DNA of 64,000 bases from Candidatus Mnemosynella biddleae. GTDB taxonomy: Archaea > Halobacteriota > Archaeoglobi > Mnemosynellales > Mnemosynellaceae. A program made the translations under genes and the position numbers. Location: positions 223,970 through 287,969 of the forward strand of contig MTMI02000007.1 of the NCBI GenBank assembly GCA_002011165.2, in the 5' to 3' direction. The notes beneath the pieces are model-generated. The model saw nothing but the letters and a program-made list of their open reading frames with translations, was not told the origin of the DNA and made no database searches. The stretch's first letter is position 1; every line of letters begins with the position of its first letter. Positions 4,904 through 41,713 of the stretch are shown in pieces.

Positions 4904-5060
4904 CCTCTGTGCTATAAAAGAGAGGGGATGGACTTCTATGAAAAACTTTTCCTAAACGCATTTAAAGAGCTTTTGTGTGTGATCCGAAAGTGTTCGATCC
5001 CTTCGATTTTTCGATTTTTAAGAGAAAATGTTACATTATAGAATTAAGAAAAATTCTATT

Positions 5061-5576
5061 ATGAATTTCTCTGAACCGGAAATGGCGGAGATGTATATCA
5101 GGGGCACAGAAGTGAACTACTATTTTGTGTGTAAAACAAAACTCTGGCTCTTCAGCCACAATGTTTCGATGGAACGAGAGAGCGATCTTGTAAGGCTTGG
5201 AAGGCTTTTACATCGAGAATTTTTCAAAAGAGATGAGAAAGATGTACGTGTTGGCCCAATAGCGGTTGATGTTTTGAAAAAAGGTAACAAGCTTGAGATC
5301 GTCGAGATCAAAAAGTCCTCTTCAGAAGAAGAAGCTGACTTTTATCAAACACTCTATTATCTCTATTACCTCAGGAAACTCGGGATCAAAGCAAGTGGAA
5401 AAATAAGTTATCCGAAAAATAAGAAGATTGTGAAAGTAGAGCTGAATGGTGAAAAAGAGAGAGAAATTGAAGATATTCTTAGGAGAGTTAGAGAGGTGGC
5501 GGAAGGAAAGATGCCATCTCCAGAAAAGAAGAAAAAATGCAGAAAGTGCGCATATCTTGAGTTCTGTTTCTCATGA
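5061..5576 (+). CDS. cas4: CRISPR-associated exonuclease Cas4
   Basis: A RecB-like PD-(D/E)xK nuclease with an iron-sulfur cluster, acting in spacer acquisition. Visible are the N-terminal GTEVNYYFVCKTKLWLFS with the first cluster cysteine, the nuclease core with D in GPIAVDV and the catalytic EIVEIKKS strand, a QTLYYLYYL helix, and the C-terminal cysteine group CRKCAYLEFC. The start is uncertain: in-frame ATGs are at 5028, 5061, 5082 and 5091, and Cas4 proteins usually begin only a few residues before the GTEVNYYF segment. A TATA-like ATTATAG at about 5036 would suit a leaderless 5061 start. It is the first gene of a cas4-cas1-cas2 adaptation operon. Confidence 0.92.
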   Translation: MNFSEPEMAEMYIRGTEVNYYFVCKTKLWLFSHNVSMERESDLVRLGRLLHREFFKRDEKDVRVGPIAVDVLKKGNKLEIVEIKKSSSEEEADFYQTLYYLYYLRKLGIKASGKISYPKNKKIVKVELNGEKEREIEDILRRVREVAEGKMPSPEKKKKCRKCAYLEFCFS

Positions 5577-40797: not shown

Positions 40798-41194
40798 GAG
40801 TTTTATGTTAGTCTTCTCCCTTTATAAGTCTTTGATTTTGATTGTTTCACACTTTTGTGAAGATTTGAATGTGAAAATTCCTTGGAGAGAGGGATTTGAT
40901 AAATAAAATGTTTATATATCTCTTTATTTCTGTTTATGAGCGCTCATTTACTTCATTTTAGCAAAATTTATATTTCTATGATCTTTTAGATTCATGCTCA
41001 TTGGACATCATTCACAAAATTCGTGAAGTGAGAAAATAAACTCTACTATATCTTTCTTCTTATACACTTCATAACAATTCTAAGCCATCTTATTTAGTTA
41101 AACACATCTATTCACATCTATATCATGGAAAAAGTTTATATATAATGCGTTTAATATAACAATTCAGATTCACAAAGCGACAGTTCACGAGGGG
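40798..41194. promoter_or_regulatory. Long intergenic region rich in TTCAC/GTGAA motifs
   Basis: About 400 bp with no supported gene. It holds three TATA-like elements reading rightward (near 40912, 40970 and 41135-41143) and one leftward for the CinA-like gene. TTCAC or its complement GTGAA occurs at 40846, 40857, 40871, 41021, 41033, 41111, 41169 and 41184, plus 41208 just beyond. Two pairs form inverted repeats: TTCACA-N4-TGTGAA at 40846-40861 and TTCAC-N7-GTGAA at 41021-41037. ATGAGCGCTCAT at 40936-40947 is a 12-bp palindrome. No CRISPR periodicity is present. Confidence 0.5.
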
Positions 41195-41254
41195 ATGGAT
41201 AGCACCTGTGAAATATCGGGAGGCGTCGATGAGAGTAAAAATCGAGATATTTGA
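41195..41254 (+). CDS. Possible 19-codon leader ORF overlapping the winged-helix gene start
   Basis: ATG 41195 opens a 19-residue frame ([19 protein letters not shown]) that ends at TGA 41252-41254, passing in another frame through the start of the gene at 41229. GAGGGG is directly adjacent upstream, closer than an ideal Shine-Dalgarno. A ribosome on it would melt the left arm of the inverted repeat at 41213-41340. Speculative. Confidence 0.25.
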   Translation: MDSTCEISGGVDESKNRDI

Positions 41255-41340
41255 TGAAGATGGAACGAAAATCTCGATTGAGTTTGAAGGGGCTCGATGG
41301 AAGGAGAAACTACTTCAATTCATCGACGCCTTCCCGATAT
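41213..41340 (+). repeat. Long inverted repeat enclosing the start of the winged-helix gene
   Basis: The left arm 41213-41232 and right arm 41320-41340 are reverse complements over 20 bp with a single extra base in the right arm; the shared core is GGCGTCGATGA. The loop between them is 87 nt. In RNA the left arm contains both GGGAGG (41218-41223) and the ATG at 41229, so the stem would hide the ribosome-binding site. Confidence 0.75.
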
Positions 41341-41672
41341 CAGAAGGGGGGCGGGATGTATTTCATCCCGCTCAAAAACCTATTTTTCCCAGTTTTGAAC
41401 CTCTCTCAGTTAGAGAACGTTTAGAGTACTATCTGAAATATGAATTTCCTCCGATTTGGTTCACATCAAGAGACCTCAAAGAGGCGTATGAGAGGAAATA
41501 CGGGGAGGAGATAAAACTTAGCACAGTTTCCACTTATTTGGCGAGAATGCACAGAGAGGGGCTACTTGAGAGGAGAGGTAACAGGGCAAATAGGGAATAC
41601 AGATACATTCATCAGAGCTCTGAGAGAATAACTTCAGTAGATCAATTTGAGAGAACTAAAGAGAACCGATAA
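41229..41672 (+). CDS. Winged-helix DNA-binding protein
   Basis: A 147-residue protein. The N-terminal 30 residues are a beta hairpin ([20 protein letters not shown]), followed by a linker and a winged helix: [15 protein letters not shown], then [21 protein letters not shown], then REYRYIH. I choose ATG 41229 because GGGAGG stands 5 bp upstream; GTG 41208 is in frame but lacks a site. A TATA GTTTATATATA at about 41134-41143 gives a leader of roughly 60 nt, unusual among the leaderless genes here. Its start lies inside a 20-bp inverted repeat and it faces a motif-rich intergenic region, so autoregulation is likely. Confidence 0.72.
41351..41371 (+). repeat. GC-rich hairpin inside the winged-helix gene
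   Basis: GCGGGATG, loop TATTT, CATCCCGC: a perfect 8-bp stem, just 10 bp past the right arm of the long inverted repeat. A short T-run (41383-41387) follows. It is coding sequence, but the combination looks like an attenuator or folding switch. Confidence 0.45.
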
Positions 41673-41713
41673 ACTTTTCTTTAATACTCCCTCTTTCTCC
41701 TATGGTGAAGAGA

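Follow-up and report, generated by a model that had tools for sequence, protein, structure and literature searches.

A winged-helix regulator gene with a conserved start hairpin and a possible leader-ORF attenuator in Candidatus Mnemosynella biddleae

In the window, i.e., the whole stretch of 64,000 nucleotides from Candidatus Mnemosynella biddleae (contig MTMI02000007.1) that was analysed, a gene for a putative regulator is preceded by a predicted promoter, a short leader ORF and a set of repeated boxes. Its mRNA is predicted to fold over its own start codon. The features of the locus, numbered from the first letter of the window, are as follows:

40846..41116, either strand: upstream TTCACA boxes (40846, 40856, 40870, 41011, 41111), likely distal operator sites (putative)
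41135..41145, forward strand: TATA box TTTATATATAA, conserved in the congener, with a predicted transcription start at ~41165
41169..41188, forward strand: putative proximal operator boxes (TTCACA at 41169-41174, TTCAC at 41184-41188), located at the predicted transcription start or shortly after it
41189..41197, forward strand: leader motif GAGGGGATG, conserved, containing the start of the leader ORF
41195..41254, forward strand: leader ORF, running through the left arm and beyond the main start in another frame
41213..41232, forward strand: left arm of the start hairpin, holding the SD GGGAGG (41218-41223) and ATG 41229-41231
41229..41672, forward strand: regulator gene, 147 aa, with a beta-beta-alpha N-terminal domain, a disordered linker and a winged helix at about residues 61-126
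41240..41279, forward strand: inner hairpin in the loop, 41240-41251 pairing with 41268-41279
41320..41340, forward strand: right arm of the start hairpin, spanning codons 31-38, with T41331 as the bulged base
41351..41371, forward strand: second hairpin, GCGGGATG-TATTT-CATCCCGC, within the coding region

The 147 residues are encoded by ORF 41229-41669. An earlier reading made from the letters alone (hereafter the sequence-only reading) had proposed a winged-helix protein, and the predicted structure agrees with it: the low-confidence model, built from two sequences, has RosR and Fur-type winged helices as its best fold matches and places linker residues 36-57 at pLDDT < 50. Searches with this structure returned generic winged helices only, at E above 0.009 (none below E 0.001), Pfam and NCBIfam gave sub-threshold matches only for the regulator, and a sequence search for a homolog of solved structure found none. 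A profile built from four orthologs detected the gene family in 144 of the 394 genomes of the phylum. One further match (L010) was to Clostridia (30% over part of the query), and a pattern scan of viral contigs found no homolog of the gene, on which a viral origin was rejected. An alternative start, GTG 41208, gives a longer in-frame ORF; it was rejected since the counterpart extension is absent in Candidatus Mnemosynella bozhongmuii, the nearest relative among the genomes compared (hereafter the congener), and ATG 41229 is thus likely the true start.

The start hairpin described in the sequence-only reading is real and exactly placed. The two arms, 41213-41232 and 41320-41340, are joined by 20 Watson-Crick pairs around one bulged base, and because the left arm contains both the SD and the ATG, folding would hide the translation start; the right arm lies inside the coding region, as claimed. 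We obtained a folding energy of -82 kcal/mol for 41165-41375 compared with -53.8 +/- 4.3 kcal/mol for 200 dinucleotide shuffles (z -6.6), none of which folded as low. The duplex of the start with the coding sequence in the window gave p 0.002 against synonymous-codon shuffles, and Rfam covariance models searched against 40800-41700 returned no match at E up to 1. The second hairpin was also confirmed, with 8 perfect pairs (41351-41358 with 41364-41371) that become 10 once flanking pairs are counted; it falls in linker codons 41-48, and the congener has the same stem and an altered loop.

In the congener, 34 of 170 positions differ in the stretch of coding sequence that was compared, and 20/20 pairs of the start hairpin are retained. 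Changes in the left arm at 41216 and 41225 are compensated at 41337 and 41327, respectively, and none of the four changes in the right arm breaks a pair, two of them merely shifting the bulge by one base. The stem of the inner hairpin is identical in both species.

The sequence-only reading would have failed if orthologs lacked complementary arms, and we found such arms in orthologs across the phylum. Seven further families (f3, f5, f8, f12, f14, f17, f18) pair the start with the coding sequence through arms of different sequence, the partner of the start region lying at about +90 to +165. Six of them (f18, f8, f14, f12, f17, f5) have contiguous helices at +123 to +153 where measurable, and helices of 11-16 contiguous pairs occur in several families. 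In f3, a stem of unrelated sequence covers the start (GAGCTGAGGGGATGAGGG with CCCTCACCCCTCAGCTC in L013; a similar stem with an internal loop in L014). Pairing between -12 to +6 and +80 to +186, expressed as a mean probability, had a median of 0.83 and a minimum of 0.48 in 22 orthologs of 8 families (0.84 or more in 10 of the 22), compared with a median of 0.05 and a maximum of 0.79 in 98 control genes, a comparison that is not free of choice because the hairpin families were named after inspection. Most members of f7 have no comparable start stem, and in f26 (L023, L026) the start codon is predicted to be enclosed by a local hairpin formed with the sequence upstream, not by a long-range one.

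Covariation was assessed with RNAalifold on a plain MAFFT alignment of 10 sequences. The start stem was recovered, and all six pairs with two-sided changes (6/6) fell within it. The covariation score was 0.268 compared with 0.170 +/- 0.023 for shuffled alignments (0/500) and 0.06-0.12 in slide controls, although the tool warns that relatedness inflates such shuffle tests. Contiguous start helices tested against synonymous-codon shuffles in six families gave a combined p of 3e-6 with one representative each and 8e-4 with the worst member of each; in several families the shuffles themselves pair well, so that part of the pairing is fixed by the amino acids. Comparison shows that compensatory changes have preserved the pairing of the start with the coding sequence in distant archaeal families; the ribosome-binding site and start lie within a conserved RNA stem that sequesters them, as expected of an attenuator. 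On the gene tree the hairpin label is clustered and not single (5 changes, at least 3 forced), a pattern consistent either with an old trait that has been lost in places or with one gained several times.

The leader ORF runs through the left arm as the sequence-only reading had it, with 19 codons at 41195-41254. Its start motif and its position stood up in the comparison and its exact length did not, a single-base deletion having shortened the ORF of the congener to 6 codons (MDSTCE). GAGGGGATG, exact or slightly altered, precedes the stem in all 22 hairpin loci, the variants including GGGGGGATG and TGGGGATG in f12 and GAGGGGATAGATG in L052 and L083. The leaders range from about 5 to 33 codons; across the hairpin families they overlap the left arm or terminate at it, and that of the congener ends just before it. 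In most hairpin loci the stop lies between -15 and +24 relative to the main ATG, often overlapping it as ATGA and in some loci adjoining it, so that most are within the overlap or spacing of about 30 nt that termination-reinitiation calls for. In f18, some leader ORFs extend far beyond the main start (stops at +33 to +72), and the leader start of L013, L014 and L083 shares the reading frame of the gene, yielding an N-terminal extension instead of a separate ORF. An SD-like GAGG stands only 2 nt from the leader ATG in most members. In 15 of 21 loci the leader start was predicted to be more accessible than the main start (0.41 vs 0.00 in the window).

A conserved leader peptide was considered and rejected, since the peptides vary in sequence, length and frame, with no conservation beyond M-G or M-D across the hairpin loci; neither a conserved stalling peptide nor an inducer, such as attenuators may use, was found. 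GAGGGGATGG alone was likewise rejected as a specific marker because a second exact copy in the window (4922-4931) precedes no such gene; this copy lies ~100 nt before an ORF (5028-5576) that looks Cas4-like by its cysteines. A similar leader occurs in f9 without a strong hairpin, and in f5 (L083, L098, L099) the leader motif TCTGAGGGGATRAATGG occurs twice, ~34 bp apart, with TTTGTGA between the copies.

With the TATA box at 41135-41145 predicting transcription from ~41165, the mRNA should carry the leader ORF and both arms of the hairpin. Seven TTCACA boxes (including those at 41169 and 41207) lie in the 431 nt of 40798-41228, where 0.38 are expected, and 40846-40861 is a palindrome, TTCACACTTTTGTGAA. 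TTCAC boxes were found near the predicted transcription start in every hairpin family, and 28 of 85 tandem TTCACA sites sit just upstream of the regulator gene (16 genomes with the gene). The gene thus has, as sequence sites, the repeated DNA elements at its own promoter that autoregulation implies, and this clustering points to control of the regulator by its own product at the DNA level. Three genomes (G072, G090, G097) have two tandem TTCACA clusters ~170 bp apart upstream of the gene, which could permit looping. Leaders in f7 (L038-L043, L057-L097) contain, at intervals of ~8-10 nt, GTGAA repeats (the TTCAC box in reverse complement); they replace the GAGGGGATG leader and run into the SD, and operator and SD may coincide there.

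Taken together, these observations partly support the interpretation given in the sequence-only reading. We consider it somewhat probable that the winged-helix gene is autoregulated and carries a translational attenuator, which translation of the leader ORF would open, and the phylum-wide comparison lends support to the claim that the leader ORF could open the start hairpin. In the free mRNA, the main start would be closed by coding sequence from the linker or its immediate neighbourhood, which pairs with the SD and start codon. A ribosome would enter at the GAGGGGATG leader start, melt the left arm as it moves along the short leader ORF and terminate at or near the main start, and the main ORF would then be initiated by coupling or by reinitiation. 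An untranslated leader would yield little regulator protein. Since the leader peptide is not conserved, the act of translation and not the peptide would matter; in the congener, where the leader ORF stops before the left arm, coupling would rely on the ribosome footprint or on reinitiation 15 nt on. At the DNA level, the protein would repress its own promoter through the TTCACA boxes.

The main rival is a constitutive damper, in which the hairpin would keep the regulator, itself autoregulated, translated at a low and steady rate, the leader motif and ORF being by-products of a second SD. The variable leader peptides, the great stability of the hairpin and the lack of a conserved ligand-binding or alternative fold are all consistent with it, but a damper requires neither the leader start motif nor the position of the leader ORF, yet both are kept with the hairpin across families, and we regard this explanation as unlikely. 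Next comes protein-mediated translational autorepression, where the regulator or another protein would bind and stabilise the hairpin. Archaeal ribosomal protein L1 acts on its own mRNA in this manner of self-control, and here the gene is apparently autoregulated at the DNA level and the hairpin belongs specifically to the mRNA of this gene; however, the arms share no motif between families, so that no common protein-binding site is evident, and the stem stays closed without help, which makes this explanation rather improbable.

A third possibility, considerably less probable again, is that coding constraint produces the pairing as a side effect, Ser-rich linker codons TCTTCATC happening to complement ATGAAGA, or that, as the sequence-only reading had allowed, the repeat is a duplicated fragment. 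Linker serines do supply TCTTCA, and synonymous shuffles retain part of the pairing in several families, but compensatory changes in two data sets and the 11-16 contiguous pairs in helices of several families argue against a coding by-product, as do the arms of f1 and f3, which use other codons and are entirely different from each other in sequence. Duplication does not account for arms that differ between families and covary while their pairing is kept, and from these comparisons the start hairpin is neither chance nor duplication. The thermosensor that had been suggested fared worst and appears very improbable: the topology, with SD and AUG within the stem, suits an RNA thermometer, but when the window was folded from 37 to 90 C the predicted pairing held to 80-90 C, the ATG having an unpaired probability of 0.05 at 80 C and 0.14 at 90 C (with energy models that are extrapolated at 80-90 C). 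Most relatives are also predicted to be closed to 80 C, and by folding energies we saw no graded melting, nor is the stem predicted to melt within the presumed growth range.

The proposed leader-ORF attenuator resembles several known systems in part. In the MS2 phage, a long-distance interaction closes the replicase start and translation opens it. There, as proposed here, a start region pairs with distant coding sequence and is opened by translation, but the partner in MS2 is the upstream coat gene and not the same gene further downstream. RNA thermometers also hold the SD and AUG inside a stem; the stem described here is far too stable and is not predicted to melt. Translational coupling has been reviewed under an RNA-unfolding model with a spacing limit of ~30 nt (PMC12548453), and termination-reinitiation at ATGA overlaps was shown in Haloferax volcanii (PMC6728339). 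These systems share with ours a downstream start closed in RNA structure and an upstream ORF that overlaps or touches it, with ATGA; they differ in that their upstream ORF is an ordinary gene instead of a short leader without a conserved peptide, and here the strand that closes the start belongs to the coding sequence of the downstream gene itself, 90-165 nt further on. Bacterial leader-peptide attenuators (ermC; the Salmonella Mg2+ transporter uORF, PMC8092293) likewise place a short ORF before a hairpin that sequesters the ribosome-binding site and start, whereas the present case is archaeal, has a long-range stem into the coding region and yielded neither a stalling peptide nor an inducer. 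At the promoter, the closest likeness is to Stf76, an autoregulated archaeal winged helix with repeated sites at its own promoter, which belongs to a different sequence family and for which the available part of the report describes no mRNA hairpin (PMC4027180).

Bacteria are well known to control translation through mRNA structure and leader ORFs, and in the literature searched we found no described archaeal counterpart with comparative support. More tentatively, the locus may represent an ancient, phylum-wide archaeal leader-ORF attenuator in which linker coding sequence evolved as the anti-start strand, combined with autorepression at the DNA level, i.e., a two-layer self-control undescribed in archaea. 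If true, this would provide an archaeal attenuator, conserved and testable, that recurs across a large phylum, and it would show selection acting on the codons of a protein linker for their pairing in RNA. Whether archaeal ribosomes open start hairpins through translation of a leader could then be tested directly.
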